This document shows positions 142 to 26,094 of a stretch of DNA of 34,121 bases, one piece after another (within the stretch, counting starts at the first letter, position 1; each line of letters starts with the position of its first letter). Origin of the DNA: Acholeplasmatales bacterium (lineage in GTDB: Bacteria; Bacillota_I; Bacilli_A; Acholeplasmatales; Anaeroplasmataceae); NCBI GenBank assembly GCA_017444645.1, contig JAFSWG010000004.1, forward strand, positions 1 to 34,121, given 5' to 3'. A program made the translations under genes and the position numbers. The notes below the pieces were generated by a model, which saw only the letters and a program-made list of their open reading frames with translations, made no database searches and was not told where the DNA came from.

Positions 142-174
142 GAAAAAAAGAATCAAGCATAAAACCTGATTCTA
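142..174 (-). terminator. Terminator of the rlmB-sigma factor unit
   Basis: On the minus strand AGAATCA (167-173) pairs with TGATTCT (149-155), followed by a run of T residues. The left arm overlaps the TAG stop codon of the sigma-factor gene. Confidence 0.75.
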
Positions 175-702
175 ATTTAATTCTAAAATCCTTTTTAATT
201 CTTCTATTATTTTCCTATAACGCTTATAAACTATACTATAACGAATTTTTTTATCTTTCGCATATTCGGCTAATGAAGTATTACCAATAATACATTCATC
301 AAATAATTCTATTTTTTCCGGATCATCAAAATACATTCTGCCATAAATTCTCCTATTTTCACTAGAATAAATAGGCATTGACTCTTCTAGTACTATAACA
401 TTACAATAATCTGTATTTAAAAGTTTTAATATTCTTCTTCTAATTGTAACTGTAAAATATGTGAAAAAGGATGTATTTAAATTATCATTATAATTTTTCA
501 TACATGTAAATAATGCCATTCTCCCTTCTTGGACTAAATCTTCAAATCTAGAATCATACACTTTTACATATTCTTTTACTATTTTAATTATATATATTTC
601 ATACTTTTCGAAAAAAATATTAAAAGCCATTTCACTGCCTTCGTTAATTAAATATAGTAGTTCATAATCATTATAATTTTTATAATCATTGTAACTATTC
701 AA
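172..702 (-). CDS. SigH-like sigma-70 family RNA polymerase sigma factor
   Basis: A 176-residue protein with the layout of a small sigma-70 factor. Region 2 is clear: an acidic N-terminal helix (NDYELLYLINEGSEMAF), then the core-binding and -10-recognition segment with FEDLVQEGRMALF and the SFFTYFTVTIRRRI helix, near residues 50-95. The C-terminal part (SLAEYAKDKKIRYSIVYKRY) fits a short region 4 helix-turn-helix. It is about 40 residues shorter than Bacillus SigH (218 aa). Position supports SigH orthology, since Bacillus has cysS-mrnC-rlmB-rae1-sigH and here rlmB directly precedes it. The frame has no ATG before residue 25. A TTG at 700-702 is the only upstream start, with AGAAGG only about 3-4 bases ahead, and the gene overlaps rlmB by 8 bases, so translational coupling is likely. 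The regulon (competence, starvation or other) cannot be read from the sequence. Confidence 0.8.
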   Translation of the reverse strand: MNSYNDYKNYNDYELLYLINEGSEMAFNIFFEKYEIYIIKIVKEYVKVYDSRFEDLVQEGRMALFTCMKNYNDNLNTSFFTYFTVTIRRRILKLLNTDYCNVIVLEESMPIYSSENRRIYGRMYFDDPEKIELFDECIIGNTSLAEYAKDKKIRYSIVYKRYRKIIEELKRILELN

Positions 703-1408
703 TTTCCTTCTTTAAATCTTTTAGTACAATTCCTGCTGAAACTGATGCGTTTAAGCTATTAACATGCCCCGTCATTGGTATTGTGATTAAAAAATCACTT
801 TGCTTAACTAATGTCTTAGACATTCCAAATCCTTCTGAACCAATAATTACCGCAAGATTTAATGACTTATCAATATCTTCAGTTTTTGTTTTGCCTGAAG
901 CATCTGTACCTAAAATCCAATAATTCTTGTCGTGTAATCTTGTTACTGCAGTTAATAAACTATTAACATATGCTATCTTAACATATTCAATTGCCCCAGT
1001 TGAAACATGGGCAACAGTTTCAGTGATGAACGCAGAACGATTTTTAGGTAAAACAACCATATCATAGCTAAATGCGTCGACACTTCTTAGGATAGCTCCT
1101 AAATTATGTGGATCTTGAATACCATCTAAAAGTAATACTCTTCCACCTTTTTCAGGAATCATATCAAAAAATTCATCTCCATAGATAGTATAATCCTCAC
1201 GGTAGGCACCGTAACCTTGATTAGATGTTCCAAATTCTTTATCCATCTTATCTTTTGATAATAATTGATAGTGATAATTTCTTTTAGTTAAAATATCAAC
1301 TATATTCTTATCTTTCTTTGCTTGTGAGTCTAAAATAAAAACTTTTTTTAGAGGCGCACTGGCTCTTAAAGCCTCATATATACAGTTTTTACCATATATT
1401 TTTATCAT
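695..1408 (-). CDS. rlmB: 23S rRNA 2'-O-methyltransferase, TrmH/SpoU family (RlmB-type)
   Basis: A 237-residue SPOUT methyltransferase predicted to methylate a ribose in 23S rRNA (Gm2251 for E. coli RlmB) using S-adenosylmethionine. The N-terminal substrate-binding domain (IYGKNCIYEAL, about residues 3-75) is followed by the trefoil-knot catalytic domain. The three SPOUT motifs are visible: LLDGIQDPHNLGAILRSVDA (about 93-112, with the catalytic Asn-Arg pair), VIIGSEGFGMS and IPMTGHVNSLNASVSAGIVL. Length is normal for the family. An ATG at 1406-1408 is preceded by GGAG at a good distance, and an extended -10 promoter lies just upstream. It overlaps the sigma-factor gene, as expected for an operon. 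RlmB is favoured over other TrmH paralogues because of the cysS-mrnC-rlmB-sigH synteny. Confidence 0.93.
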   Translation of the reverse strand: MIKIYGKNCIYEALRASAPLKKVFILDSQAKKDKNIVDILTKRNYHYQLLSKDKMDKEFGTSNQGYGAYREDYTIYGDEFFDMIPEKGGRVLLLDGIQDPHNLGAILRSVDAFSYDMVVLPKNRSAFITETVAHVSTGAIEYVKIAYVNSLLTAVTRLHDKNYWILGTDASGKTKTEDIDKSLNLAVIIGSEGFGMSKTLVKQSDFLITIPMTGHVNSLNASVSAGIVLKDLKKEIE

Positions 1409-1438
1409 AATAAAATCTCCAATAAATGAACTAACTAA

Positions 1439-1447
1439 ATTATAACA
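1439..1447 (-). promoter_or_regulatory. Extended -10 promoter for rlmB-sigma factor
   Basis: The minus strand reads TGtTATAAT, a consensus extended -10, about 30 bases before the rlmB start codon and downstream of the ATPase terminator. The -35 is weak, as is common with extended -10 promoters. Confidence 0.6.
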
Positions 1448-1479
1448 ATAAATCTAATAAAATGAAAGTAATATTTAAT

Positions 1480-1504
1480 AAAGCCCCTGATAAACAGAGG
1501 CTTT
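1480..1504 (-). terminator. Terminator after the P-type ATPase gene
   Basis: On the minus strand AAAGCCTCTG (1495-1504) pairs with CAGGGGCTTT (1480-1489) with one mismatch around a 5-base loop, followed by an AT-rich tract. It separates the ATPase from rlmB, which has its own promoter. Confidence 0.6.
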
Positions 1505-1508
1505 TATA

Positions 1509-4500
1509 TTATTCTTGATCTTTCTTCTTGTTTTGTCCTTCTTTAGGACCAATCTTATTAATTCCTTTAACAATATATCTAGTTGCTTGTGTTGACCAAG
1601 GAACAGAATATTGGAAAATTCTCATAACAGGACCAGATAATAGACATAACATAATTAAGAAGATAAATGATGGTAAATTAATAATCTTAACTAAGCCACC
1701 TTTTTGAACTGAAATATAATTGCTTGATAATTGATAATCAGTTTTTACATCACTAATCATTAAATAATTATCATCAGTTAATACAGGATTTAAATTAGAT
1801 GTATTAGCTAGATAATCAGTATAGTAACCATCAATAATGAAGTGTCCTGCTTCAGTAATTTCAATTTGTGGTTTTATTTCTGTATTATTAATACCAACAG
1901 TAGTTCTTAAATTCTCACCAATCTTTGAGTAACTCTTTGTTGATTTAGAATATGTCATTATGCTGTAGAAAGTATCATAAATATTTTTATTATCCTTATT
2001 AACATAAACACATAATTCTCTTTCAGAATCATATACATTTATTTTATCAGAATTTTCATCTAAATAATCAGTAAATCCTTTTTCTTTTAAATCTTTAAAA
2101 GTAAAGTTTGTAGCTGGTAATACTCCATCAACATAAATTTGTTTTGTCTTAGTATTTAATGTATATTCATGTCCAATTTGATTTTTTATTGTATATGATG
2201 TTTCTTCATTTTCTACTGTTTCAGTACCATATACCTCAAATATAGTCTTACCAGAATCTAAACCTGATAAGTATATTGCACCCTGTAATTCAGATTTATT
2301 GGCATTTGTTGATACCTTTGGTAATTCTACAATATACGGAGTTTTTGATACTGAGCTATCTCTAGTATATGTAGCATAAATAGGCTCATTATTAACTAAT
2401 AATGTATAAGTTAAATCATCATTTTCTTTTAAAGATAATGAAAGCTGAGATGGTAACATAGATGTTAATGGTGCTTTATATTTATATTCAGGTGATGTTT
2501 GACCATTGATAATATATTCACCATTTTTAACTTCTACTGTTGGCATAATTGAGGCAACATATTCAGCTTTTTCTTTTACATATACACCATATTTAATCTC
2601 ATAATTATAATATGAATTAGATTTTGTTAATAAAATCTTAACAGGGGCATTTGTAGAAGGATCACCAAAATATAAATTACCATCGCCATCAGCTCTTAAT
2701 GTTGCTGTAATACCATCAGTATATGTTTTATTAGTAACTTCGTATCCACCTAAAATAATGTTACCAGTATCTGTATAGCTAATAGTTGGAATGTTTACCT
2801 GAGTATCTAATCTTAATTTTTTATCATATACGCCATCAACAAACGCTGTTGATGAGAATGAATAATAAATCTTTCCTGCTTCATTTTTATCATCAGGATC
2901 ACCATCTACTACATATAAATCTGTACTATTATTATTTTGTGTAGCTGAAAGAGATGTTATTTTTCCATCTACTACATATATTCCTGTTTCAGATTTATCT
3001 ACACTAGGATAATGGTTAATACTTGTGATTGTATAATCATTTGAATAATATTCTCCTGTAGGAAGTATTGGTCTAATTTCCAAGAATTTTGGTAAAACTA
3101 ATACTGCAAATAGGAATAATGTATAGCAGGTTGTAAATAGAGCTGCATGCATTGTATTAAATGGCTTACAAGCCTTATATAATACCATTAAGCAAGTATG
3201 AGTTGCAGCAACAATAATAATTGTATTTCTTGTAATAATATCTAAATACATAGCATCAGCTAAGCTAAATACTATTATTGATAACAATAATATTGTGAGG
3301 GCTCCTGGGAGAGCTTCTCTAATAACGTTATACAAGAACCTACCTTTAACAGGAGCATTATTTGGTTCATTTACCAAGAATAATGATGGTAAACCAATTG
3401 CTAGAGTATCAATTAAGAATAATTGATTTGTAGAAATAGGATAAGATCCTGTAATAACAGCCTCTATTGCTAGGAATAATGAGAAAATTGTTTTAGTTAA
3501 GAATAATGATGATACCTTTGTAACATTATTAATAACTCTTCTTCCTTCAGATACAACAAAAGGCATTGAATCAAAATTAGAATCTAATAATACTAAGTGA
3601 CTACAATTTCTTGCTGCTTCACTACCTGATGCAACAGCAATTGAACAGTCAGCTTCTCTTAATGCAAGGATATCGTTAACACCATCACCTGTCATGGCAA
3701 CAGTTCTACCTGATTCCTTTAATGTTTTAATTAAAATTTGTTTCTGTTTTGGAGAAACACGTCCAAATACAGTATATTTTAATGCGGCACGCATAACATC
3801 TGTATCTGTCATACCTTCAAGTGAAACATATTTTTCAGCACCTGTAATTCCAGCTCTTAAAGCAATTTTAGAAACTGTAATTGGATTATCACCTGATATA
3901 ACTCTAACTTCAACACCAGATTCTTTGAAATATCTAATAGTATTTATAGCATCTGGCCTAATTGTATCTTCAATTAAAATCATAGATACAACTTGATTTT
4001 CACCCTCAGGTAATTTTTCATTTTCAATAACACCAGGATTATATGCTAAGCATAAAACTCTATATCCTAAACCAGCATATTTATCTACATCTTTTTTATA
4101 TCTAGCATAATGTTCTTGTAATACAAACTCAGGAGCACCTAAGATATATGTTCCATATTTATCAAAAGTAACAGCTTGAAGCTTTCTTTGACTTGAGAAT
4201 GATATAGATGCAGTATGCTTAATTCTCTTACCTAAACCAAATTTTTCTTTTAAAGCTTGGCTTGTTAAGTTTCTATCAGGTAGAGCATTTAACATTGCGG
4301 AAATAACATTTCTTGTTGCTAAACCATTCATAACATTATAATCAATGACATTTTTAACAACCATTGTACCATCAGTAATTGTACCAGTCTTATCTAGACA
4401 AATGCAATTAACTCTCGCAAGCATTTCAATACAATATAATTCTTGAACCAATACTTTTCTTTGACCAAGTCTTATTACACCTACCATGAGGGCAATAGAT

Positions 4501-5573
4501 GACATTAAGAAAAGTCCAGATGGAATCATACCAATCATCGCACCTGCAGTTTTTCTAATACAGTTAACGATGTCTCCTGTATAATCACCACTTCTATAAT
4601 ACATAATTAAGAATAATGTACCACCAAATACGATTACAGGGACAGCCATTACTCTAATAATTAAGCTCAATGATTTTAACAAATCACTTTGTGGCTTCTT
4701 ATATGATTTAACTTGACTAGATAATTTTTCAATATAATTATCTTTTCCTACTTTGTCTACTCTTACTTTACATTTTCCTGAAACAACAAATGAACCACTA
4801 TATAAGCTATCACCAGGATTTTTGATTATTGCATCACTTTCACCTGTTAATAATGATTCATTTACTTCAATTGTTCCCTCAACAATAATTGAATCGGCAC
4901 AAATTTGATTTCCTGTTTCTAAAACTAAAATATCATCAAGTACTACCTCAGTTGTATCTATTTCAATTTCAGCGCCTTCTCTAATTACTACCGCAACTGG
5001 GGCAGACATTAAAGATAAGGAATCAATCATATTTTTAGCTTTAATTTCTTGGATAATACCAATTAAAATATTAGCTGTAACAATTGCTAAGAAGATTAAA
5101 TCTGTATATGCTCCTACAGCGATTAAAGCTCCAGCTATTAGGAACATCATAATATTAAAGAAAGATACGATATTTGTAAAAATAATCTTAGGAATAGATT
5201 TTGTCTTATTTTCATTGGATTTATTATTAAATCCATCAATTAATCTATCTTCAACAATTTCTTTAGTTAAACCATAATTAGGATCTGGTTCATACCTTTT
5301 TAAAGTTGTAGGATTCTTCTTAATATCTTTTTTTCTTTTTCTAATGGCTGCTTGTCTAAGCTTTTCTACTCTTTTTTCTTCTTTAGTCTTTTGACGTTGT
5401 TTAAGTTTTTCTTGACGAGGAGGTAAAACTGTAATTTCTTCAGTAATTTCTACTGTTTCTTCTTCCTTATTTTCAGGATAATCATTGTCAGCTTCTTGAT
5501 TTTCTTTTCTATTATCTTCTAAGAATTTTTCTAATTCTTCATCATTAAGTTCATCAACCTTAGTTTCTTTCAT
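1509..5573 (-). CDS. P-type cation-transporting ATPase (CtpE-like) with large extracytoplasmic insert
   Basis: A 1354-residue P-type ATPase. An unusual charged N-terminal tail (about residues 1-105, Glu- then Lys/Arg-rich) precedes the core. Core landmarks are the actuator motif LLTGES near 240, the M4 segment GMIPSGLFLMSSIAL, the phosphorylation motif DKTGT with Asp394, and the hinge MTGDGVND near 627. The M4 and following VLVQELYCIEMLARV resemble CtpE-type transporters, linked to Ca2+ uptake in mycobacteria, so a divalent-cation substrate is an inference. After the last helix pair (FTTCYTLFLFAVLVLPKF, ending near 832) there is a hydrophilic, beta-rich, Thr/Tyr/Asn-rich stretch of about 460 residues. 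One final helix (NLPSFIFLIMLCLLSGPVM, near 1300) and a Lys-rich tail follow. Topology puts the insert outside the cell. A strong AAAGGAGG precedes the ATG, and the gene overlaps mrnC by 14 bases. Confidence 0.93.
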   Translation of the reverse strand: MKETKVDELNDEELEKFLEDNRKENQEADNDYPENKEEETVEITEEITVLPPRQEKLKQRQKTKEEKRVEKLRQAAIRKRKKDIKKNPTTLKRYEPDPNYGLTKEIVEDRLIDGFNNKSNENKTKSIPKIIFTNIVSFFNIMMFLIAGALIAVGAYTDLIFLAIVTANILIGIIQEIKAKNMIDSLSLMSAPVAVVIREGAEIEIDTTEVVLDDILVLETGNQICADSIIVEGTIEVNESLLTGESDAIIKNPGDSLYSGSFVVSGKCKVRVDKVGKDNYIEKLSSQVKSYKKPQSDLLKSLSLIIRVMAVPVIVFGGTLFLIMYYRSGDYTGDIVNCIRKTAGAMIGMIPSGLFLMSSIALMVGVIRLGQRKVLVQELYCIEMLARVNCICLDKTGTITDGTMVVKNVIDYNVMNGLATRNVISAMLNALPDRNLTSQALKEKFGLGKRIKHTASISFSSQRKLQAVTFDKYGTYILGAPEFVLQEHYARYKKDVDKYAGLGYRVLCLAYNPGVIENEKLPEGENQVVSMILIEDTIRPDAINTIRYFKESGVEVRVISGDNPITVSKIALRAGITGAEKYVSLEGMTDTDVMRAALKYTVFGRVSPKQKQILIKTLKESGRTVAMTGDGVNDILALREADCSIAVASGSEAARNCSHLVLLDSNFDSMPFVVSEGRRVINNVTKVSSLFLTKTIFSLFLAIEAVITGSYPISTNQLFLIDTLAIGLPSLFLVNEPNNAPVKGRFLYNVIREALPGALTILLLSIIVFSLADAMYLDIITRNTIIIVAATHTCLMVLYKACKPFNTMHAALFTTCYTLFLFAVLVLPKFLEIRPILPTGEYYSNDYTITSINHYPSVDKSETGIYVVDGKITSLSATQNNNSTDLYVVDGDPDDKNEAGKIYYSFSSTAFVDGVYDKKLRLDTQVNIPTISYTDTGNIILGGYEVTNKTYTDGITATLRADGDGNLYFGDPSTNAPVKILLTKSNSYYNYEIKYGVYVKEKAEYVASIMPTVEVKNGEYIINGQTSPEYKYKAPLTSMLPSQLSLSLKENDDLTYTLLVNNEPIYATYTRDSSVSKTPYIVELPKVSTNANKSELQGAIYLSGLDSGKTIFEVYGTETVENEETSYTIKNQIGHEYTLNTKTKQIYVDGVLPATNFTFKDLKEKGFTDYLDENSDKINVYDSERELCVYVNKDNKNIYDTFYSIMTYSKSTKSYSKIGENLRTTVGINNTEIKPQIEITEAGHFIIDGYYTDYLANTSNLNPVLTDDNYLMISDVKTDYQLSSNYISVQKGGLVKIINLPSFIFLIMLCLLSGPVMRIFQYSVPWSTQATRYIVKGINKIGPKEGQNKKKDQE

Positions 5574-5958
5574 TATTTGCCTCCTCCTTTCGCTTAATTA
5601 TTAAATTAATAATTTCTTCTAGTCTTTCTTTATTTTTTAAATATAAATATCCGATTACAGCTTCAAAGCCTGTTGCGGATAAATATGTCTCAACATCTAT
5701 ATTTTTTCTTACTGAGCCTATATGAGAATTTCTTCCTCTTTTGTAAATAGCTAATTCTTCATCATTTAATATATTATCATTAATTAACCAATAAATAAAG
5801 TTAGCTTGATTTTTTCCACTAGTAAATTCTACACATTTTTTATTTAACACATTTACTTTAGAAAATCCTTTATTTAGTAAATACTCTCTAATATGCAATT
5901 CAAAAACTGCATCACCCAAATAGGCTAGTGATAGTCCATTTAGCTGATTATAATCCAT
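5560..5958 (-). CDS. mrnC: Mini-ribonuclease III
   Basis: A 132-residue stand-alone RNase III catalytic domain without a double-stranded RNA-binding domain. This is the Mini-III form, which trims 23S rRNA precursor ends in Bacillus. The RNase III signature LAYLGDAVFE (residues 11-20, with acidic Asp16 and Glu20) and the second acidic motif ATGFEAVIGYLYL near the C-terminus are both present. Its start codon shares one base with the cysS stop (TAATG), and its 3' end overlaps the ATPase gene, so all three are translationally linked. Adjacency to cysS is conserved in Firmicutes and supports the assignment. Confidence 0.95.
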   Translation of the reverse strand: MDYNQLNGLSLAYLGDAVFELHIREYLLNKGFSKVNVLNKKCVEFTSGKNQANFIYWLINDNILNDEELAIYKRGRNSHIGSVRKNIDVETYLSATGFEAVIGYLYLKNKERLEEIINLIIKRKEEANNERN

Positions 5959-7286
5959 TATAATATACCAGCTTCAACTAACTTATTTCTATAAATATCT
6001 GCAGTTTCAAAATCTTTATTAGATCTTGCTTCTTGCCATTTCTTGTAATTATCTAAATTTTCATCAGACATTTTTTCAACAAATAAATTAATACCTAATA
6101 CATCCATAATTGTCTTAAATGTATTTGTCTTAATAGCTAATGTATTATAATCTTTAGCTCTTAATGTCGTATTCATTGATTTGATAATTGTATTAATTAA
6201 TGTTAAAACATTTTGAACATTAAAATCATCATCCATTTGAGTCTTAAATTCGTTAATATCAGATTCATCAAGCTTATCTGTTAATAAGCCTTCATATTGT
6301 AATGTATAAAGTGCTTGTTTATAAGCTCTTTGCCATTTTTCATATTCCTTTTGATATTGATTTTTTAATTCTTCACTATATGAAATAATAGAACGATATG
6401 GAGCAAATAAGATTAAAGCTCTAATAACCATTCCATCAGTTGTATTATTTAAGTTTTTAACATAAATAACATTTCCTAATGATTTAGACATTTTTTCGCC
6501 TTCTAAATCAAGACGTCCAACATGGATCCAATATTTTGCTAAATGTGTCTTATATAAAGCTTCAAATTGAGCAATTTCATTTTCATGATGTGGAAATTTC
6601 AAATCCATTCCTCCACCATGAATATCTAATGCTGTACCAAATAGCTTATGGTTCATAACAACGCATTCTGTATGCCACCCAGGTCTACCACTACCAAATG
6701 GAGAATCCCATTTAATACCTTTATCTGTCTTTTTCCATAATGCAAAATCAAGTGGAGATTCCTTTTTTGAATTAACTTGAATTCTAGCACCAGACTCTAA
6801 ATCCTCTGATACTTGATTAGATAAGCATCCATAATCAGCAATTTTTGATACTCTGAAGAATACATCACCATCAACTGAATATGCATATCCCTTTTCAATT
6901 AATTCATTGATAAAAGAAATCATTTCATTAATATAATCTGTTGCGTGAGGAATCATATCAGGCTTTCTAGAACCAACCTTTTCAACAGAATCCCAATATG
7001 CATCTTCAAAGAATTTAGCAACTTCTGCCTCAGTTTTGTTTGAATCAATTGCTTTATTAATAATCTTATCATCAACATCAGTAATGTTAGATGCATAATT
7101 TACCTTATATCCTAAAAACTCTAAATATCTTCTTAACATATCATAGAAGATTACAGGTCTTGCATTACCAATATGAATGTAATTATAAACTGTAGGTCCA
7201 CATACATACATATTTACTTCTTTTTCTTTATTTGGAACAAATTCTTCTAATTTATTAGATAAAGAATTATAAATTTTAAGTGCCAT
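5958..7286 (-). CDS. cysS: Cysteinyl-tRNA synthetase
   Basis: A 442-residue class I aminoacyl-tRNA synthetase that charges tRNA-Cys with cysteine. The N-terminal MYVCGPTVY contains the zinc ligand Cys29. The ATP-binding HIGH motif appears as HIGN at 38-41, the other zinc-site elements as HTECVVMN and FPHHENE, and the second ATP motif KMSKS at 265-269. The C-terminal helical anticodon-binding part (QMDDDFNVQNVL and onward) is present, but the length is at the short end for CysS (about 460-470 usual). GGAGG precedes the ATG at a normal distance. It heads the cysS-mrnC-ATPase unit. No clear promoter is seen in the 60-base gap upstream, so read-through past the preceding terminator or a weak promoter is possible. 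Confidence 0.98.
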   Translation of the reverse strand: MALKIYNSLSNKLEEFVPNKEKEVNMYVCGPTVYNYIHIGNARPVIFYDMLRRYLEFLGYKVNYASNITDVDDKIINKAIDSNKTEAEVAKFFEDAYWDSVEKVGSRKPDMIPHATDYINEMISFINELIEKGYAYSVDGDVFFRVSKIADYGCLSNQVSEDLESGARIQVNSKKESPLDFALWKKTDKGIKWDSPFGSGRPGWHTECVVMNHKLFGTALDIHGGGMDLKFPHHENEIAQFEALYKTHLAKYWIHVGRLDLEGEKMSKSLGNVIYVKNLNNTTDGMVIRALILFAPYRSIISYSEELKNQYQKEYEKWQRAYKQALYTLQYEGLLTDKLDESDINEFKTQMDDDFNVQNVLTLINTIIKSMNTTLRAKDYNTLAIKTNTFKTIMDVLGINLFVEKMSDENLDNYKKWQEARSNKDFETADIYRNKLVEAGIL

Positions 7287-7346: not shown

Positions 7347-8906
7347 TTATGCTAAAAGTCCTTTTAGCTTTTCGCTTAAATTTTCTGGTTTTTCAGTTGT
7401 AATAGTACTTGAACCATTAAATGCTTCTGCACTAACAGAGTCACTAACCTTAGCTTTGAATGAATCTACAAATAATACTGTATCTCCATCGTCATTGTGT
7501 TCTTTTCCTTCAGCAACAGTTTCAGCTAATAACTTAGAATATGAGTTTCTAACTCCATAAATGCTTCCACTAGCATTACCAATGAATCCACCAACATATG
7601 CATTTTGACTAGCAACTAACTCATTTTCATAATTGTGGCCATCTCCATCAGTAGGAACTAAACCAGCATATGCCTTTAATGTAGCAATTGCTAAAGAGTT
7701 TGTAATTCTAATATTTGCTGTATTACCACCAACAAATCCACCCATGAATAAATCAAACTTTCTAGCTTGTTGTTTCATTGAATATGTTGCATCTACTTTT
7801 GAATAACAATCATTAATTGTACCATTTGAACCGATTTGACCAGCAAATCCACCTACATAGATATAATCTGCATAATCAGATGTTGAAGATAATGAATATT
7901 CTGCAACAACTGTAAGGCTACCTTCAGCACCGCAAGATTTAGCAGTAACATTTTCTAAGCCTTCGCCTAGTAAAGCACCTGCAAATAAACCAACAGATAC
8001 TTTAATTCTTGCACTTGTATAATTAATACTAACGTTAGTTGCTTCTACGCTATCGAATGCTGAACCAACTGACTTACCAACAACACCACCTGTAAAATGC
8101 TCAGCACTTGATGATGCTGTAATCTTGTATGAAACATTCTTAATTGTTACATTATTAACACTTGTTCTTTCAGCATATCCAAATAATGCACCAATAAATG
8201 CATCTGAACGAGAAACTTCAACTGTGACATCTTCAATAATTAAATTCTTTATTGAAGCTCCCTTAACATTTCCTAATAAGCCCATATACTTACTTGAAGA
8301 TAACTTATAATTAGTAATCTTATGGCATCCAGTTAAATTACCATCAGCGTCATAAATACCACCATCAATTGTTCCTATAAATTGAGAAGTATCTGTATTG
8401 AATAAATTTATTGAATCTCCACCAAAATCAAGATCTGATGTTAATGTATAATCATATTTTTCAGTACCAAGTTTATTCTTGAAATCATCTACTGAAGCAA
8501 TTTCAGTTGAAACAGTTGATGATGTAGTTGCAGTCTTTTCTACAATCTTTTCATCTGTACCATTGAAAGTAACATATAAAATGAACTTATATTCTTGCTT
8601 TGAAGCTAAACTTTTAAATTCTACTGTTGATGATGTGTATACGCTATTTGAGAATGATACATTTTGTTTTGTATGATAATTATCTGTACCATCTACAACC
8701 TTATAACAAACAATGTATAAAACACTACTCTTAATATTTTCATTTTCATCAAATGTAAGCTTAATAGTTGCCTTATCTTTTGTTGTTGTAATTTGCATAT
8801 CAACATTTTTCTCACTAATACCACTTGAGTTATTAGAACATGCAGCTAAGAATAATAATCCGAAGCATGCAATTAATCCTGCTAATAATTTTTTAATTCT
8901 TTTCAT
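7347..8906 (-). CDS. Surface lipoprotein with GLUG-like beta-helix repeats
   Basis: A 519-residue secreted lipoprotein of unknown function. The signal peptide ends in the lipobox LAAC, with the lipidated residue at Cys23, followed by a Ser/Asn-rich linker. Residues about 30-130 look like a fibronectin-type beta-sandwich. The rest contains repeated motifs of the type G-x-hydrophobic-x-G-x-(small) followed by I-x-N-hydrophobic (GLLGNVKGASIKNLIIEDVTV, FIGALFGYAERTSVNNVTI, FTGGVVGKSVGSAF, YVGGFAGQIGSNGTINDC, FMGGFVGGNTANIRIT, YVGGFIGNASGSIYGV). These are GLUG-like repeats, which typically form a parallel beta-helix on adhesins and other surface proteins. GAGGTG precedes the ATG and a sigma-A-like promoter lies upstream. 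It is a single-gene unit with its own terminator. Confidence 0.85.
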   Translation of the reverse strand: MKRIKKLLAGLIACFGLLFLAACSNNSSGISEKNVDMQITTTKDKATIKLTFDENENIKSSVLYIVCYKVVDGTDNYHTKQNVSFSNSVYTSSTVEFKSLASKQEYKFILYVTFNGTDEKIVEKTATTSSTVSTEIASVDDFKNKLGTEKYDYTLTSDLDFGGDSINLFNTDTSQFIGTIDGGIYDADGNLTGCHKITNYKLSSSKYMGLLGNVKGASIKNLIIEDVTVEVSRSDAFIGALFGYAERTSVNNVTIKNVSYKITASSSAEHFTGGVVGKSVGSAFDSVEATNVSINYTSARIKVSVGLFAGALLGEGLENVTAKSCGAEGSLTVVAEYSLSSTSDYADYIYVGGFAGQIGSNGTINDCYSKVDATYSMKQQARKFDLFMGGFVGGNTANIRITNSLAIATLKAYAGLVPTDGDGHNYENELVASQNAYVGGFIGNASGSIYGVRNSYSKLLAETVAEGKEHNDDGDTVLFVDSFKAKVSDSVSAEAFNGSSTITTEKPENLSEKLKGLLA

Positions 8907-13359: not shown

Positions 13360-14004
13360 ATGGATATCTTTAATAATTTAAGCAGTGAAGAAAAAGAAAT
13401 ATTATTTGATTCAGTTCAACCAGTAATAAGAACATATCATAAAGGTGATACTATATTTTATGAAGGAGATGAATGTGATTATTTGGCATATGTTGAAGAA
13501 GGAACAATCGTTGCTAAACAATCATTTTCAGATGGACATGATAGCATTATTAGAATAATCAATGCTCATGAATATATAGGTATTAATCTTATGTATTCTT
13601 CTTTACCTAAATATAAAGCTTCCTTCTATGCTGATTGTGATGTAAAAATCTCAATGTATAGTTTTAATGACTTATTAATGTTAATGAAGGCTTCTACTAC
13701 TATTTTAAAGAATTTCTTAAAAGCTATTAGTGATTCTGCAATTAGCTTAAGTGATCATATCAAGCTTTTAACACATAAAACAATTAGAGGTAAAATTTGT
13801 TATTTATTATATAATGAATATTTAAAAACTGGTAAATTATCATTTAAGATTGAAACAACAAAAACTGATTTAGCAGCTTTATTAAATATTGAACGTCCTA
13901 GTCTTTCATACGAAATGAAAAAGCTACAGGATGAAGGAATTATTGAAAACAAAAATAAAAATTATACAATTTTATCTTTAGATACATTAATGAAAGAATT
14001 ATAG
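13360..14004 (+). CDS. Crp/Fnr family transcriptional regulator
   Basis: A 214-residue regulator with an N-terminal cyclic-nucleotide-binding-like beta-roll (YHKGDTIFYEGDECDYLAYVEEGTI, about residues 25-50), a long dimer helix, and a C-terminal winged helix-turn-helix (TKTDLAALLNIERPSLSYEMKKL, about 167-190). The phosphate-binding cassette that in CRP reads GE...RSA is here YIGINLMYSS...YKAS. It lacks the Glu and Arg that hold cAMP, and the FNR four-cysteine cluster is absent, so the ligand is unknown. It follows the dehydratase gene by 8 bases with no good ribosome binding site of its own, which suggests translational coupling. It probably controls this operon, and the direct repeat at 9025-9067 is a candidate target (inference). 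Confidence 0.88.
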   Translation: MDIFNNLSSEEKEILFDSVQPVIRTYHKGDTIFYEGDECDYLAYVEEGTIVAKQSFSDGHDSIIRIINAHEYIGINLMYSSLPKYKASFYADCDVKISMYSFNDLLMLMKASTTILKNFLKAISDSAISLSDHIKLLTHKTIRGKICYLLYNEYLKTGKLSFKIETTKTDLAALLNIERPSLSYEMKKLQDEGIIENKNKNYTILSLDTLMKEL

Positions 14005-15291: not shown

Positions 15292-18200
15292 TTATTCAGT
15301 TGTCCAAGGTGTTGGCTCATCATCTACATAATGCCAATATTTATTATCAGTATCAGTAGGTTCTGTTTCTGAATAATAATATTTTTTAGCAGATGTAAAT
15401 AAATTATTTCCATAAGATGAATAAGTAAATGATTCGAAATCTTTTGGTGTACCAGCAAAATATACATCAGATAAACTTGTACCATAGAATGCATAATCAT
15501 AAATGTATGTAACACCCTTTGGAATAACTACTGATGTTAATTTATTACAGTTTCTTAGTGCATTTGATGATATTGTAACACCATCAGTTCTATTGCATGT
15601 TGCAATAACTGAAGTTACTTCAGATGTTCCTGCATAATAATATCCAATGTAATATAACAAATGATATGGTAATTTCACTTTGACAAGTTTGGCACCTTCA
15701 AATGGACTATAGTCTCTATTTACAACACTATCAGGAATTTCTAAATATTCGACTTCACACCCTTTAAATGCTCCTCTACCTAACTCATTAACACCAGGTA
15801 AAACAATAATCGATTTTAAATCTTTTCTATATTGGAAGGCTGCTTCTTTAATCTTAAGATTTGTGATTTCAGCACCTTCGTAAGTGAATGAACCTGAAAT
15901 TACTGCGTTCTCATTTTCACCTAAATATGCTACAATATAACCCCTATCTTCAGATGCGATATATGCATATACAGCTCCATTTGAATCTTTTACTAATACT
16001 GATTTTTCATCAGTTGAAGTGTGTACTATAAGAGCATATTGTCCAATATAACCATTATCAGTATATCCCTTTGTAATACTTAAAGATGATAAGTTATATA
16101 TTTCAGTTAATCTATAACACCATTGGAATGCAAAAGATTCAATTGATGTAACACTTGCTGGAATTGTAATTGAAACTAATGAACCACAACCATAGAATGA
16201 ATAATTTCCGATTGTATTAACTTTATTACCAATTATTACTTCAGATAAATTATTACAATTATAGAATGCATATTGTCCAATTGATGTAACAGCATCCGAA
16301 ATGACAACAGATTTAATATTATTGTTTTGATAGAATAAATAATCTTTAATTACATATTCTGAAATTATATCATCACCATATTCAAACGAATCAGGTAATA
16401 CTAATTCAGTACTATTTCCAGTATATCCTACTAAATATCCTATATTATCAGCATAGACAAATTGATATCCATTAGAATCAGTAACAATACTTGTATTGTC
16501 ATCTAAAGATGTATGAACAATCTTTGCATATAATCCTAATGAACCATTTTCGTTTTCTATTCCAATATTAATAGTAATATAGTTAGATAAGTTATATACC
16601 TCAACTAAGTTATAGCATCCTGCAAATGCATATGCCTTAGATGTTGAAGAATCGATTGTATTTTCAATAGTTTGAACATTTTCAGGAATAATTATTGATT
16701 TTAAAGAAGTACAATTTTCGAATGCTCTATATTTAATTGTAGTTAATGAACTAGGTAAAGTAATATTCTTTAATGATGTACATCCACTAAACATATCACT
16801 ACCTATTGTGTCATTTCCTTCAGCAATAGTAGCTTCTTCTAACATTGTACAACGATAAAATACTGAGCTAGGAATAGTACTCCATACGCCATTAATTGTA
16901 ACTTTTTCTAAATTAATATCATCAGAGAAAGCATAATCACCAACACTTGTGATAGTTGAAGGTAATACTAATTGTTTTAATCCACATTCTCTAAATGCAC
17001 TACCACCTATACTTGTAATAGAATCAGTGAATGAAACTGTTTCAAGACCACTACATCCAAAGAACGTGCTTGTTGGAATTGAAGTTATATTTTCACCAAA
17101 TGTTACATCATTTAATGATTTACAATTTTTAAATAAACCTTCAGCTAAATTACAATTTATAACTACTTTTTCAAGTTTTCTACATAGATTAAATGCTTCT
17201 TTTCCTATTGAAGTAATTGTTGAAGGTAATTCAAGTGATGTGAAACCTGTATTTTCAAATGCACCTTGATTAATTGTCTTAATATTTGTGAAATCAAATG
17301 ATGATAATGATGTACAATTCTTAAACATTTCATAAGGAATTGAAGTCATATCTGATGCTAAAGAAACGGTAGTTAATTTAGCACAATCCTTAAAGAATCC
17401 AGTATGACCACTTTCATATGTTACACCAGTTCCAAATGTAACTGATGTAAGCTCAGGACATCCTTCAAAAGCATACATACGAAGCTTTGATCCTGAAGGA
17501 ATAGTTAAGTTCTTTATTCCAGAACCTTTTAAACAATCTTCATAATAATACTTAATATTTGTAGTATCAATTGTTTCTAAACTTGTACAATTTTCAAACA
17601 TATGTTCTGATAAAGTATCTCCACTATTCATTGTAAATGATGTTAAACTAGTACAATTTCTAAATGCATATTTACCACCATATGAATTAGTATTAGCATA
17701 ACTTGTATTCCAAATAACAGTTTTTAGTCTCTTACAGTTTTCAAATACACCATAACCAGATGTTCCATGATATAGCTTCATTCCACTTGGTATTGTTATA
17801 GTTTCAATATCAGTGCCATAGAATGCACCTTTTAATACTTCTACTACTTTATTCCAAGTAATTGATTTAATACTTGTATTAGCAAATGCTTGTGTTCCAA
17901 TTAATGTCGTCTTATCAGGGAAAGTAATAGATTCTAGTGCTGTACAGCCATAGAACATTCTACTTGCAACGCCACCTAAATTTGTAGGTAGTAATACATC
18001 AGTTAATGAAGTACATCCTTCAAATGTAGATGATGAATTACTAGAGCCATCACTAAATGAATAAGTAGATATACTCATATTTGTTAAATCAACTGATGTC
18101 AATGCTGTACAATTCTTAAATGCTTGTAAATTAATCTTTTCAAGATTTGAAGATGCAACAAATGTTTCAAGACCTGTACCTTCAAAAGCATTCTTTCCGA

Positions 18201-21200
18201 TTGTTGTAATATCTGAACTTAATGTAATAGATTTTAAATTACTATAATTTTGGAAGGCTTTTTCAGGAATTGTTGTTCCACCATTAATTATCAATTCTTG
18301 TAAATTTTTAATAGATTCATTGTTTAGACCTGTTATATTAGAAAATTTACAAGAATTTTCGCTTGAATAATAATATGGCATTTCAAGATATTTTAATGTA
18401 GAAACACCGCTCAAGAATCCTTCAAAATCAGTACATGTATTTGGTACTACTATTTTTCTTAATTTATAACAATCACTAAATGCACCACTATAAATCTTTT
18501 CACATGCTGGGTGAACTTCACACTCTAATATTGTCTTAGTTCTTGCTTTAACAAGCCATCTAAATGGATTATCACTAGTTCCGAAATAACAACCATTTTT
18601 ATAAACTGTTCCAGTTAATTTATCACATCCTGAGAAAGTTGAAGAATTAATAGATTCCAATGTATCTGGTAATTCAATATTAACTAAATTCTTACAATTT
18701 TCAAATAAAGATGCAGATAAAGAAGTTACTTCAGTATCCTTTAAAGATATTGATTCCAATGTAGTACATCCCTCAAATACTGAATATTGCATTGAAATTA
18801 ATGTAGTAGGAATCACAACAGTATACAAAGATTTACAATTCATAAATGCTTCACTATAAATTGCAGTTGTTCCTTCACTTATTTTTACACTTTGAAGTGA
18901 ACTACAATCTTCAAACATATTTTCACCAATTATTGTCAATGAAGCAGGTAAACTTGCACTAGTTAATGAATTACATTTATAGAATGTTGAATAACCAACT
19001 GATTCTAGACCTTCTTTTAATACAATCTTCTCTAATCCTGAATATGAAAAAGCAAAATTTCCAATATATGTTACAGTTTCTGGAATATCAATGTTCTTTA
19101 CATTTGAGCATTGATATAATGCATAATCAGGTAAAGATGTTATTTCAGTTCCCAATACAACTTTTGTTAATGTATTTGGAATATATTTAGAACAATTATC
19201 ATAATAAGATGCACCAAAATAATATCCAATATAATTGTCATCAAACATATGTAATTCTAATTCTTCTAGCTTTAACCCCCTTAGAGCACCTAAAGCAATA
19301 GAATTAACATCAGCTGGAATAACTAATTTTGTTATAGTCTTATCTTTTACATCAGCTAATACTTTATTACCATTATCGTTATAATATACAAATCCATTTT
19401 CTTCAAAGAAAATTGAATCAGTATTATCAGTAACTACGCTTTTTGCATAATATGCTACATAGCCATTGCTTGAATAACCTTTAGATATACTTAATGATGA
19501 TTTATTTATTACTTCAATTATGTTGTTGCATCCATAGAAAGCATAATTACCAATGCTTTCTAGAGTTTGTGGTAATTCTATTTGTTTTAAGAAATTACAA
19601 TAGTAAAAAGCATCATAATCTATTTCTTTCACTTTAGGGAAGCTAACATTACTTAAACTTGAACAATCAATGAATGCATTTCCACCAATGTATTCTACAT
19701 TTGGTAAATTAGCTGATATCAAGTTGTAACAATCAGCAAATGATCTATAGCCTATATTTGTTACATTCATTAAATCAATAGATGATATATTGACACATCC
19801 TTCGAATGCATTTTCTCCAATTGAAACAACTTTTTCATTTAATGTTACTGTTTCAATATTTGTATTATATTTGAATAATTCATCCTTAATTATAATGTCA
19901 TAATTATCAAATGAAGGTATTACAATATCTTTAGAATTTCCTAGATATTCTAATAATGTGACTGTATTATTTTCTAAATCTAGAAGATATCTAAAATCAC
20001 CTTTAACGCCAATTTGACTTTGCGCAGTCTTATCAGTAATTATTTCAATTACGTTTGGTGCACCACCAGCATCATCTAAAGTTAACTCAACAGTTGAATA
20101 ATTATAGATAGTGAATAATTTAGTACAATCTTCAAATGCATTTTCATCAATATAAGTAACTGTTGAAGGAATTATTATTTCAGATAAAGAACTACAATCA
20201 TAGAATGCTCTATAATCTATTCCTTCTACTCCTTCATTTATCTCTACCTTTTTCAAATTATAGCAATTAGAGAAAGCTTTATCGCTAATATAATCGACTT
20301 TATTAGATAATTTAACACTTTCAACATTTGATTGGAATATATATTCATGAAGTTCATATGAAGGAATTGCATCAGTAGCATCTGGTAATACTAAATTAGT
20401 ATCATCACCATAATATCTATCTAATCTCCAATATCCTGCTTCATAGTTTTCGAATAAATAATCATCAACTAATAAATAACCTGAATTATCAAGAGATTGA
20501 ATAGGATAGCAGTTTTGCATAGCATCTATAAAATCTTGATTTACTTGTAAATCTCCATTTAAATATACTTCTATGGATAAGTCATTATTGTAAACATGAC
20601 CAGGTACACTTGTATCTTCTACTGGATCTGGACTAATAGGTCCGCTTATAGGTATTAAAACCATTCCTGATGGAATTATGTATCTATTGAATACTCCCAC
20701 ACCAACTTCTGGAACACTATTAAATGTAACTCTTACAATACCACTATTTGCAAATGCATAATTATTAATTTTCTTTAATGTTTTTGGTAATGTTAAGAAG
20801 CATACATTTGCATAACTAAATGCGTCCTCAGCTATTTCTGTAACACCCTCAGGTAATGTAAGATCAATAGGGCATCCCTCTTTTAGTCCTAAAACTATAC
20901 ATTCAGTATCTGTTGATTTAAATTCTAAATATTCAAATCCTGGAGCTATTTCAAATTTTGGTGAAACATAATCTGCATCACTTATTAATACTTTAAATGA
21001 ATCACTTGTAGAAATTAAATTATCACCATTATACCAACCAATAAATTTATAACCAATTCCTGAATTTGCTTGTAATAATTTATATTCACCAACAATTTCT
21101 GATGCATATGAATCTACAGGAGAATCATCTGGCTTAACATCTACTGGTTTAATTGTTTTTTCTGAATTATTTTTATAAAAGTCTATTACTTCTTCAGGTA

Positions 21201-21369
21201 AAGTAATATTAGAAGGAGAATTATCAACACTTCCTCTATCATGATCATTTTCGTTTATATTTGTTCCTTGATTAGAAGTAGTTGTTGTAGTACTATTATC
21301 TTTTACGCAAGATGCTAAACTAAAAGATGCAAGTAAAGCTAAGCTAACAAAAATCTTTTTCTTTTTCAT
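15292..21369 (-). CDS. Giant BspA-type leucine-rich-repeat (LRR_5) surface lipoprotein
   Basis: A 2025-residue lipoprotein. The signal peptide MKKKKIFVSLALLASFSLAS leads to a lipobox cysteine at position 21, then a Ser/Thr/Asn linker. Residues about 90-150 resemble a bacterial-repeat (InlB B-repeat-like) domain (GYKFIGWYNGDNLIS). The remainder is dozens of about 23-residue LRR_5 units of the form I-x-x-x-A-F-x-x-C-x-x-L-x-x-(I/V)-x-(I/L)-P-x-(S/T)-(hydrophobic)-x-x-I. About five non-LRR inserts of related sequence interrupt the array (see finding). The C-terminal piece (YYYSETEPTDTDNKYWHYVD) is a common cap in such proteins of gut bacteria. BspA-type proteins bind host or bacterial surfaces, but the target here is unknown. 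GGAGGGAG precedes the ATG and the gap to the FecR gene is 13 bases, so they share an operon. Confidence 0.93.
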   Translation of the reverse strand: MKKKKIFVSLALLASFSLASCVKDNSTTTTTSNQGTNINENDHDRGSVDNSPSNITLPEEVIDFYKNNSEKTIKPVDVKPDDSPVDSYASEIVGEYKLLQANSGIGYKFIGWYNGDNLISTSDSFKVLISDADYVSPKFEIAPGFEYLEFKSTDTECIVLGLKEGCPIDLTLPEGVTEIAEDAFSYANVCFLTLPKTLKKINNYAFANSGIVRVTFNSVPEVGVGVFNRYIIPSGMVLIPISGPISPDPVEDTSVPGHVYNNDLSIEVYLNGDLQVNQDFIDAMQNCYPIQSLDNSGYLLVDDYLFENYEAGYWRLDRYYGDDTNLVLPDATDAIPSYELHEYIFQSNVESVKLSNKVDYISDKAFSNCYNLKKVEINEGVEGIDYRAFYDCSSLSEIIIPSTVTYIDENAFEDCTKLFTIYNYSTVELTLDDAGGAPNVIEIITDKTAQSQIGVKGDFRYLLDLENNTVTLLEYLGNSKDIVIPSFDNYDIIIKDELFKYNTNIETVTLNEKVVSIGENAFEGCVNISSIDLMNVTNIGYRSFADCYNLISANLPNVEYIGGNAFIDCSSLSNVSFPKVKEIDYDAFYYCNFLKQIELPQTLESIGNYAFYGCNNIIEVINKSSLSISKGYSSNGYVAYYAKSVVTDNTDSIFFEENGFVYYNDNGNKVLADVKDKTITKLVIPADVNSIALGALRGLKLEELELHMFDDNYIGYYFGASYYDNCSKYIPNTLTKVVLGTEITSLPDYALYQCSNVKNIDIPETVTYIGNFAFSYSGLEKIVLKEGLESVGYSTFYKCNSLTSASLPASLTIIGENMFEDCSSLQSVKISEGTTAIYSEAFMNCKSLYTVVIPTTLISMQYSVFEGCTTLESISLKDTEVTSLSASLFENCKNLVNIELPDTLESINSSTFSGCDKLTGTVYKNGCYFGTSDNPFRWLVKARTKTILECEVHPACEKIYSGAFSDCYKLRKIVVPNTCTDFEGFLSGVSTLKYLEMPYYYSSENSCKFSNITGLNNESIKNLQELIINGGTTIPEKAFQNYSNLKSITLSSDITTIGKNAFEGTGLETFVASSNLEKINLQAFKNCTALTSVDLTNMSISTYSFSDGSSNSSSTFEGCTSLTDVLLPTNLGGVASRMFYGCTALESITFPDKTTLIGTQAFANTSIKSITWNKVVEVLKGAFYGTDIETITIPSGMKLYHGTSGYGVFENCKRLKTVIWNTSYANTNSYGGKYAFRNCTSLTSFTMNSGDTLSEHMFENCTSLETIDTTNIKYYYEDCLKGSGIKNLTIPSGSKLRMYAFEGCPELTSVTFGTGVTYESGHTGFFKDCAKLTTVSLASDMTSIPYEMFKNCTSLSSFDFTNIKTINQGAFENTGFTSLELPSTITSIGKEAFNLCRKLEKVVINCNLAEGLFKNCKSLNDVTFGENITSIPTSTFFGCSGLETVSFTDSITSIGGSAFRECGLKQLVLPSTITSVGDYAFSDDINLEKVTINGVWSTIPSSVFYRCTMLEEATIAEGNDTIGSDMFSGCTSLKNITLPSSLTTIKYRAFENCTSLKSIIIPENVQTIENTIDSSTSKAYAFAGCYNLVEVYNLSNYITINIGIENENGSLGLYAKIVHTSLDDNTSIVTDSNGYQFVYADNIGYLVGYTGNSTELVLPDSFEYGDDIISEYVIKDYLFYQNNNIKSVVISDAVTSIGQYAFYNCNNLSEVIIGNKVNTIGNYSFYGCGSLVSITIPASVTSIESFAFQWCYRLTEIYNLSSLSITKGYTDNGYIGQYALIVHTSTDEKSVLVKDSNGAVYAYIASEDRGYIVAYLGENENAVISGSFTYEGAEITNLKIKEAAFQYRKDLKSIIVLPGVNELGRGAFKGCEVEYLEIPDSVVNRDYSPFEGAKLVKVKLPYHLLYYIGYYYAGTSEVTSVIATCNRTDGVTISSNALRNCNKLTSVVIPKGVTYIYDYAFYGTSLSDVYFAGTPKDFESFTYSSYGNNLFTSAKKYYYSETEPTDTDNKYWHYVDDEPTPWTTE

Positions 21370-21382
21370 TTTATTCTCCCTC

Positions 21383-24097
21383 CTATTCTGTTACCACAAT
21401 ATTTTGAATTGATATTACAAAGTTACCGCTTGCTGATAATGAAATACTTTGACCCTCGTTTGAAGTACCTGGAACTAATTCTGTTGCGTTATTTGTAGAT
21501 TCAACAACACAGTAGATTTGATAAATTGTATATGTTCCTGTCTTTGTAATCTTTGGTATTTCTGTGGTCCAAGTCTTTCCTTCATCAATTGAGTAATATG
21601 TTGCTGATGAAGTAGCTGGACCAACTATATCGAATACTATACTTGTTGGAATAACTGTTGGAATATCAGTTTTACTTACATTTATATCACTTGGTAATGC
21701 TACATCTACTTCTAAAGATGAATATTTTCCACCACTTGCATAATATCCAATTTCAGAATATTCAAATTTTACAATTCCACTAATTGTATTATATCCATTT
21801 GCAGAAACTGTATAATTAAAATCTGCTGAACCATCTTTTTTATCTGATACTGCCACTTTTACATCTATTTCTTCTTTTGTAATTGAATCATAGAATTTTG
21901 AATTCTTTAATAAATCTGTATAAATCTTATAAGTATCAGCAAGTGAAGTAATTGTTCTTCCATCTGGTGATTCTGCAGTTCCGCTATGTGTCATACCATC
22001 TGAATCTCTATATGAATAACTAATTGTATGGCTATCATTTGAAAGAATATAGATTGTATCACTTAAGAATCTTAAATTGTCTGATGCAATTACTCCTTTT
22101 CCAACTTCAACACTAACATATTCATATCCTGTAACTACACTAGAACCATTAGTTACTTTATAATATACTTTATGATTTCCAGCTTCAGTAATATATAATG
22201 AAGAATTATAAGTTGTTCCATCTATAGAATATTCAACTGTATAATCAGAGCTTATAAAATCCATTAATACTCCTGATGGATTATCATTTGCATTATAACC
22301 ATAACTTGTATTTCCTACTTGGTATGAAGGATAATTAGTTGGTTTTGTATCAGCTAAATACATGTAGATAGTTTCATTATATCCCATTGTAGTTGCAGAT
22401 GGGAAAATTAAGAAATTAACTTCATTATATACGTTTGCTGTAAAACTAAATGTATTAGTACCATCATAATCTTCTATTGTACCAAATTCAGGTTGAGGCC
22501 CACCATTTGATAAATAAATAATATCATATGGATAATTAATTAACGTCATACTTAAGTCATCAACATCTAGACCAAATGCTGTTAATAAGTCACTACCTGA
22601 AATTGAGTATTCACCAGCATTGCCATTTGTAAATGCTGCTGTATTGAAATAATATAAATTACCACTTAAATTTTCTAGATAATCACTTGATGAAGCAATT
22701 GAATAACCTAAATCTTCTCTTGTGTCACTGAAAATAAAATCTACATTAGTTGTAAAATTATATGTTCCAAAATCAAAAGTAACGCTTAACGAATTTTTAC
22801 CATCAACTAATTCAATATAATCATCAATAATCTTATTATATTTAACTGTTGTTGTAGCAGTTACTTCTTCATTATTGAAATAGAATTTTATATTATTTAA
22901 TACTTTCGAAGCTAGAACACCATTATATTTATTGAACATAGTATCTTCAAATTGAGAAATATTCAAAATAGAATTGTTTAAAGTGTTATCATATCTTATA
23001 TAATCAGTTTCAACAATAATATTTGGCTTAGTAATATAAATAACTTCAAAGTCTTCTACATCTTTATAGCCTTCACAAACAATTTTATAATAAACTCTAT
23101 AGCTACCTGGAGCTATATATTCATAATTATTGTTTTCACTATATTCAGTTTCGCCTTCAGCTTTATAGTATACCTTTGCGCCTGTAACTGCAGGTGTTAT
23201 TGAAACTTTATGTGCAGTACCATCATAAGCTCCAAAATAACCTGTTGCAGTGAAATCAATTGTTGGAACATCAAGATTATTTTCAATTTCTCCAATATAA
23301 TCAAAATCAGTTGCTTCAACCTTTCCAACTTCAATTTGGACTTGATCTAACTTATTATTTGCATCTGTTGGATCATCAAATTTGTTATTAACATCTTTTA
23401 ACCAATCTTTTGTAATTTCATTAAACTTATCAGTTGGTATTACTTTTTCCTTTGGTACATTAACTACAATCTTTCCTGAATCAACACCGATATCTGATAA
23501 TTTACCTTTAATGATATTACCATCAACAATATCAAATACATATAATTCAGTACGACCTTTAAATACAGAGAAGCTTTCAACGAATTCTTTTGCCTTCTCT
23601 ACTACTTCAACTCCAAATGTAGTACCACGAACGGCCATTACTGAGTTATTAGATGATAAGAAGAATTCTTCATCTTCTCCTAATTTATTTTGAATTTGAG
23701 CTAATACTTTACCTTTTTCGATAAAGATGTTAGTCTTTTTACTATCTTTTCCTTCACTCTTGATTTTAACTTCAGACAATTGGTCGATGTAAATGTATTT
23801 ATCTTCATCAAATTTTAAAACTAATTTTGAGTTTTCTTTTACATTTAGTTCATCACCATCATATAAATTCATTCCCTTAAAGCAAGTAATAGTTTCTTTG
23901 TCATCAGTAACAGTTGCTTCACCTTCAATTTGAACTATTTTTATACTCCTTGCTTGACCAATAGGTTGAGGATTGTTTTCTTGTGTTTCAACAGTTTGAG
24001 TTGTTGTTGTATTGTTATTTGATCCACCACAGGCTGCTAATCCAAATGTGGCAAAGATTGCGATAAACACAATTATAAATTTCCATAACTTTTTCAT
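21383..24097 (-). CDS. FecR-domain lipoprotein
   Basis: About 904 residues. The start is placed at the ATG at 24095-24097 because GGAGGG sits just upstream; an in-frame TTG at 24107-24109 would place the ribosome binding site inside the gene. The signal peptide ends at LAAC (Cys23). Residues about 45-210 form a FecR domain: a beta-rich segment with GDELNVKENSKLVLKF, IFIEKGKVLAQI, and the signature VMAVRGTTFGVEV. The rest consists of beta-sandwich, Ig/MBG-like modules with repeated Tyr-rich strands (TYNSSLYITEAGNHKVYYKV, TWTTEIPKITKTGTYTIYQI), probably extracellular. In other phyla FecR-domain proteins are encoded beside CHASE2 adenylate cyclases, as here. No FecI-type sigma factor or TonB system is present, so iron signalling is unlikely. 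It may be the extracellular partner of the cyclase sensor (inference). Confidence 0.9.
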   Translation of the reverse strand: MKKLWKFIIVFIAIFATFGLAACGGSNNNTTTTQTVETQENNPQPIGQARSIKIVQIEGEATVTDDKETITCFKGMNLYDGDELNVKENSKLVLKFDEDKYIYIDQLSEVKIKSEGKDSKKTNIFIEKGKVLAQIQNKLGEDEEFFLSSNNSVMAVRGTTFGVEVVEKAKEFVESFSVFKGRTELYVFDIVDGNIIKGKLSDIGVDSGKIVVNVPKEKVIPTDKFNEITKDWLKDVNNKFDDPTDANNKLDQVQIEVGKVEATDFDYIGEIENNLDVPTIDFTATGYFGAYDGTAHKVSITPAVTGAKVYYKAEGETEYSENNNYEYIAPGSYRVYYKIVCEGYKDVEDFEVIYITKPNIIVETDYIRYDNTLNNSILNISQFEDTMFNKYNGVLASKVLNNIKFYFNNEEVTATTTVKYNKIIDDYIELVDGKNSLSVTFDFGTYNFTTNVDFIFSDTREDLGYSIASSSDYLENLSGNLYYFNTAAFTNGNAGEYSISGSDLLTAFGLDVDDLSMTLINYPYDIIYLSNGGPQPEFGTIEDYDGTNTFSFTANVYNEVNFLIFPSATTMGYNETIYMYLADTKPTNYPSYQVGNTSYGYNANDNPSGVLMDFISSDYTVEYSIDGTTYNSSLYITEAGNHKVYYKVTNGSSVVTGYEYVSVEVGKGVIASDNLRFLSDTIYILSNDSHTISYSYRDSDGMTHSGTAESPDGRTITSLADTYKIYTDLLKNSKFYDSITKEEIDVKVAVSDKKDGSADFNYTVSANGYNTISGIVKFEYSEIGYYASGGKYSSLEVDVALPSDINVSKTDIPTVIPTSIVFDIVGPATSSATYYSIDEGKTWTTEIPKITKTGTYTIYQIYCVVESTNNATELVPGTSNEGQSISLSASGNFVISIQNIVVTE

Positions 24098-24109
24098 ATT
24101 TCCCTCCAA

Positions 24110-25924: not shown

Positions 25925-25985
25925 TTTTCTCCCTTTTAAAATTATATTTAAAATCATTTAGCAAACATAACAAAAAATCACCTAC

Positions 25986-26023: not shown

Positions 26024-26043
26024 TTATTAGGTAACATTAACAA

Positions 26044-26072: not shown

Positions 26073-26094
26073 AGTAATAATCGCAATGATTAAT

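Follow-up and report, generated by a model that had tools for sequence, protein, structure and literature searches.

Few membrane machines are as well studied as P-type ATPases, and in the bacterial ones the outer loops should be short. What, then, is a region of more than 460 residues doing between the last two membrane helices of a bacterial pump, in a loop that normally has 10-30? We address this question for a gene in the window, a 34,121-nucleotide stretch from an Acholeplasmatales bacterium (GCA_017444645.1, contig JAFSWG010000004.1) whose draft genome measures 1.59 Mb at 74% completeness. In the open-access literature we found no P-type ATPase described with a large ectodomain between TM9 and TM10. 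A large, recurrent, conserved, and fast-evolving ectodomain suggests either that the environment directly controls an ion pump or that a housekeeping pump is put to use as a surface anchor. These ideas are testable: the insert is present family-wide, insert-free relatives occur naturally (G032 of the same family and the order's other families), and cultured Anaeroplasma exist.

The pump and its locus

The catalytic motifs TGES (residue 243), DKTGT (394), and GDGVND (629) stand in order in the 1354-residue protein, placing it in the P-type ATPase superfamily. Pfam finds E1-E2_ATPase (PF00122, 8e-43) and a HAD hydrolase (PF00702). In NCBIfam, the generic P-type model TIGR01494 scores above its cut-off and no equivalog reaches its own; the P2 Ca2+ pump equivalogs fall below theirs (TIGR01116, 172 of 703 bits; TIGR01517, 217 of 507; TIGR01522, 193 of 798). 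The best PDB relatives are a Listeria Ca2+-ATPase and yeast Pma1.

The first-pass annotation called the pump CtpE-like, and the comparison supports this within limits. The name P6 has been proposed for CtpE-like pumps, marked by PEGL in TM4 and by a TM6 in which Ile substitutes for Asp (PMC10654040); CtpE of Mycobacterium takes up Ca2+ (PMC5615198), and Tenericutes homologs are reported within the group (PMC5615198, PMC10654040). The window protein shares the ten-helix P-type architecture and, in TM6 (QLFLIDTLAIGLPS), the Ile of the CtpE group. This places Ile at a position that, from SERCA, we take to be that of the Asp. The differences lie in TM4, which reads IPSGL (all 68 aligned relatives covering the site have this motif or a close variant, none PEGL), in length (1354 versus 791 residues), and in the outer insert of about 466 residues. 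Because TM4 carries IPSGL without PEGL, we call the protein a CtpE-like, putative cation pump without assigning it to P6.

The gene sits in a conserved cluster (window 172-7286) that is found across the order. Wherever a contig is long enough, the genes run cysS-mrnC-ATPase-rlmB-sigma factor, insert present or not, so the host pump genes are orthologous. Coordinates are collected in Table 1.

Table 1. Features of the pump gene and its neighbors, in window coordinates
Feature	Residues	Position	Strand	Basis
SpoU/rlmB-type rRNA methyltransferase, conserved neighbor downstream of pump		695..1408	(-)	
P-type ATPase gene, insert included	1354 aa	1509..5573	(-)	single unbroken ORF
TM10, helix after insert	1299-1317	1623..1679	(-)	hydropathy and AlphaFold2
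Insert between TM9 and TM10, extracellular by topology	~836-1301 (466 aa)	1671..3068	(-)	
Conserved membrane-proximal strand just before TM10, possible stem strand	1287-1295	1689..1715	(-)	AlphaFold2 strand 603-611 of model
Last unit DDNYLMISDVKTDYQLS, adjoins TM10	1267-1283	1725..1775	(-)	
Repeat unit PQIEITEAGHFIIDGYYTDY, best conserved of the units	1235-1254	1812..1871	(-)	unit profiles, A5 profile
Degenerate unit TYTLLVNNEPIYATY	1055-1069	2367..2411	(-)	assigned by eye
Repeat unit PTVEVKNGEYIINGQTS	1011-1027	2493..2543	(-)	unit profiles
Repeat unit PTISYTDTGNIILGGYEVT	929-947	2733..2789	(-)	unit profiles
Repeat unit PSVDKSETGIYVVDGKIT	856-873	2955..3008	(-)	unit profiles
Conserved membrane-proximal strand just after TM9, possible stem strand	842-852	3018..3050	(-)	AlphaFold2 strand 158-168 of model
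TM9, helix preceding insert	813-830	3084..3137	(-)	hydropathy and AlphaFold2
TM6 QLFLIDTLAIGLPS, Ile at Asp position of Ca2+ efflux pumps		3384..3425	(-)	
DKTGT phosphorylation motif		4380..4394	(-)	
TM4 IPSGL (PEGL in CtpE and P2 Ca2+ pumps)		4512..4526	(-)	
Mini-RNase III (mrnC), conserved neighbor upstream of pump		5560..5958	(-)	

Elsewhere in the window, a 519-residue protein with a weak GLUG motif lies upstream of cysS (7347-8906, minus strand); many family members share it in synteny, and it evolves fast (27-50% identity). A Crp-type regulator lies at 13360-14004. A signaling and surface cluster (15292-27201) encodes a 2025-residue BspA-type leucine-rich-repeat protein, a FecR-domain protein, a CHASE2-adenylate/guanylate cyclase, and a GGDEF protein.

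An outward-facing array of short beta units

The region of about 460 residues that the first-pass annotation saw before the last helix (1675-3080, residues 832-1299) is borne out. The hydropathy profile has no hydrophobic segment inside residues 836-1301. We examined two AlphaFold2 models of two orthologs: one covers TM5-TM10 plus the insert (46 alignment rows, mean pLDDT 83), the other the full-length ortholog L036 (1194 residues, pLDDT 79). Ten membrane helices are predicted; TM2 and TM3 flank the A domain, TM4 and TM5 the P and N domains, and both models place the insert after TM9 and before TM10. Given P-type topology, the orientation of the A and P/N domains in the models puts the TM9-TM10 loop outside; the predicted position of the insert is thus on the outer face of the membrane, as first proposed, and the cytoplasmic placement named as the outcome that would speak against it was not seen. 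A lysine-rich tail after TM10 is consistent with a cytoplasmic C-terminal end. The full L036 model resembles SPCA1, Pma1, and SERCA, with E-values as low as 5e-42: a type II ten-helix fold with A, P, and N domains.

The insert is hydrophilic, acidic, and all-beta. All 46 ortholog inserts have a pI of 4.1-4.9 and a net charge of -11 to -41, and they hold 0-5 Cys. Conservation peaks at the two ends, over the initial ~40 and the final ~75 residues (commonest residue at 0.49-0.57), and the middle is variable (0.23-0.42). The insert has a pairwise dN/dS of 0.12-0.47 and the pump core one of 0.01-0.14: purifying selection on the insert is 2.8-10 times weaker.

Within the insert we recognize a tandem array of three-strand units of about 28-30 residues, with the pattern P.I.I...G.Y.I(N/D)G..T.Y. 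The models display runs of short, short, and long strands at a spacing of about 28 residues, clearest in the shorter L036 insert. Profiles built from single segments detect other segments of the same insert (E down to 4e-10), and a unit profile built from the inserts of a different family, f19 (see below), detects 73 units across the 46 Anaeroplasmataceae inserts, 44 of which have at least one; shuffled copies of the 46 give no match. This cross-detection, together with the f19 matches and their absence from shuffled sequence, indicates that the repeats are not chance. The beta-rich, repetitive character read from the letters alone is therefore upheld by models and unit profiles; the strands quoted as examples each occur once (TGIYVVDGKITSL, residues 863-875; GEYIINGQTS, 1018-1027; KQIYVDGVL, 1144-1152; GHFIIDGYYTDY, 1243-1254).

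The structure prediction and family search suggested at the outset gave a beta-rich region without a convincing match. The insert matches no Pfam, NCBIfam, or PDB sequence family, and Foldseek against PDB and BFVD returned nothing convincing. A beta-propeller was considered and rejected: the best TM-scores are near 0.1 at an rmsd near 20 A, and Pfam propeller matches are weak.

Distribution, recurrent gain, and related hairpins

Of 160 genomes of the order, 49 match a profile of the insert, every one of them from Anaeroplasmataceae and together spanning six of that family's seven genera; one match (G021) is an ABC exporter, leaving 48 pumps. Named relatives are Anaeroplasmataceae and Acholeplasmatales genomes from rumen and gut, one labeled Anaeroplasma bactoclasticum. 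Counting flanking residues, the TM9-TM10 loop spans 306-520 residues in insert-bearing members, versus 13-29 in the order's other families and in G032, an early-branching genome that alone represents the seventh genus. In a core tree with the insert removed, the insert-bearing proteins unite at 100/100 with G032 outside, which argues for one gain in Anaeroplasmataceae. In the survey of related genomes the insert proves to be a family-wide trait, and inserts of the same repeat type recur in this loop elsewhere in the class.

That recurrence emerged from a survey across the class, which turned up one more long pump homolog, G262 (1184 residues), and from family surveys and direct reading of the loops. 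A separate survey of 295 genomes, all of this class, revealed no other above 1000 residues outside Anaeroplasmataceae. Four genomes of f19, in two genera (G262, G320, G350, G391), carry inserts of 272-286 residues in the same loop; they read 'GYWIINGIETNVKA'. In a third family, G214 has a loop of about 96 residues with two units of this repeat type, and the other homologs surveyed have loops of 10-42 residues. The f19 and Anaeroplasmataceae inserts differ in length and align with each other (hhalign 96%, E=1.6e-9), sharing repeat type and loop.

Inheritance of both large inserts from one origin along with their pumps is rejected. Each insert group nests within its own family in the core tree, well-supported branches force at least three changes, and an AU test rejects grouping the two large-insert clades (p=0.0003), so the insert either arose more than once or moved without its pump. 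Judged from the sequences, the same repeat type is separately gained in the same loop by at least two other bacterial lineages, and the gain is recurrent. The insert may have passed on its own from pump to pump; a single ancient gain followed by many losses is also possible, at the cost of more events. Recurrent gain in one loop suggests that selection favored an outer domain at this site, and the insert is probably useful as an outer attachment and not there by accident.

The f19 insert also points to a link with known surface proteins. It scores 28.6 bits (E 1.4e-6) against DUF4988 (PF16378), whose gathering cut-off is 30; the window insert itself has no Pfam match. On this sequence evidence, the repeat appears related to the G.W.I(N/D)G..T repeat of DUF4988 type in lipoprotein and collagen-like surface proteins. 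The hairpin found there appears to be of the same kind as in the f19 insert, which aligns with the window insert; the window pump differs in carrying many degenerate copies inside a membrane pump.

Single hairpin copies occur in three lipoprotein-like surface proteins with collagen-like stretches (L113, L114, L128), of which L113 matches DUF4988. Four f19 N-acetylmuramoyl-L-alanine amidases (L110, L111, L112, L115) carry a P.I.IS.DGYY.LNG..T hairpin within the Amidase_2 catalytic domain, confirmed for L111 and assigned by eye for the others. The G021 exporter (L106; G021:C31:8631-10778, minus strand) has 717 residues versus 605-666 in its closest genus relatives.

What the outer domain may do

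The reading we favor, at roughly even odds, is that the pump carries the array as a fused outer domain that engages an external partner or polymer. We favor it because the domain is exposed, its middle evolves fast yet under constraint, its repeats have kin in surface proteins, and it was gained repeatedly at one site. The pump core, with intact motifs and fold, would cycle like other P-type ATPases; pumping as such does not need the insert, which most homologs in the class lack. The outer domain would be a row of short beta units, three strands each, anchored to TM9 at one end and to TM10 at the other. Its two conserved ends may form a base beside the membrane, and its exposed, variable middle most likely binds something outside the cell. 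Against this reading, the insert has no match to a family or solved fold whose binding role is known, and any ligand is a guess; candidates would be a surface or host polymer, a food particle, or a partner protein. The pump would then serve as membrane anchor of the binding domain, and possibly as its regulated target.

An alternative that we consider somewhat unlikely is a built-in accessory subunit over the extracellular mouth beside TM7-TM10, governing folding, ion access, or cycle speed. Accessory subunits are familiar from the beta subunit of Na,K-ATPase, CDC50 of P4 pumps, and neuroplastin/basigin of PMCA, and they sit near TM9 and TM10. The tether at these helices fits such a role, as do the strong conservation of the membrane-proximal ends and the PMCA-neuroplastin entries that turn up as structural matches to the pump part. 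These subunits, like KdpC, would resemble the insert in placing an outer domain beside the last helices; they are separate polypeptides of unrelated folds, whereas here the domain is a loop insert within one polypeptide. A fast-evolving middle and a length that varies over 300-520 residues are unlike a part fitted to one pump, and homologs manage without the insert.

The binding reading must also be weighed against the idea that the loop may simply tolerate insertions. A repeat-prone segment would have entered it and persisted, either as passive protection from phage, protozoa, or proteases or through drift; we judge this unlikely. Great length variation and relaxed constraint agree with it, and so does the G021 exporter, where about 105 residues carrying the hairpin motif (E=2e-6 to 3.5e-6) are inserted in frame right after Walker A, in the cytoplasmic nucleotide-binding domain. 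The unit can thus land where outer binding makes no sense. This insert occurs in G021 only and is either a real insertion or a draft-assembly chimera. Against passive expansion stand a dN/dS far below 1, retention in nearly all genomes of six genera, the conserved ends, and at least two clean, separate gains at the same loop. The exporter also raised the idea of a mobile in-frame element striking many genes, which a motif profile run over 55 Anaeroplasmataceae genomes does not support: outside the pump it found this exporter, one collagen-like surface protein (G045), and seemingly chance matches in unrelated proteins.

Two bolder proposals fare less well. In the first, which we hold to be quite improbable, the protein would be a receptor-pump: binding of a ligand or surface to the TM9-TM10 ectodomain, passed through TM10, would switch the transport cycle, a design that would have evolved at least twice, each time through insertion of one kind of hairpin repeat at one site. 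In the second, a long shot, the acidic domain would concentrate divalent cations for an importing pump, by analogy with CtpE and Ca2+. The uniform acidity and the uptake activity of CtpE (PMC5615198) speak for cation capture; TM4 lacks the PEGL glutamate, no conserved EF-hand-like site was found, and acidic surfaces are common among secreted proteins. Finally, an assembly or annotation artefact fusing two genes, named in the first-pass annotation as a refutation and a concern since the genomes are metagenome drafts, is practically negligible and we rule it out: the same in-frame arrangement recurs in 49 genomes from many studies, among neighbors in conserved order, with both parts under purifying selection.

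A tie between the insert and cell wall loss was considered and ruled out. In 19 genomes tested from insert-bearing genera, mraY is present in 9 and absent from 10; the lack of a link removes the simple idea that the insert replaces a lost wall. With insert-free G032 included, mraY is present in 10 of 20 Anaeroplasmataceae genomes tested. These counts agree with the report of mur genes in 40-60% of the family (PMC10868615): part of the supposedly wall-less Anaeroplasmataceae retains peptidoglycan genes.
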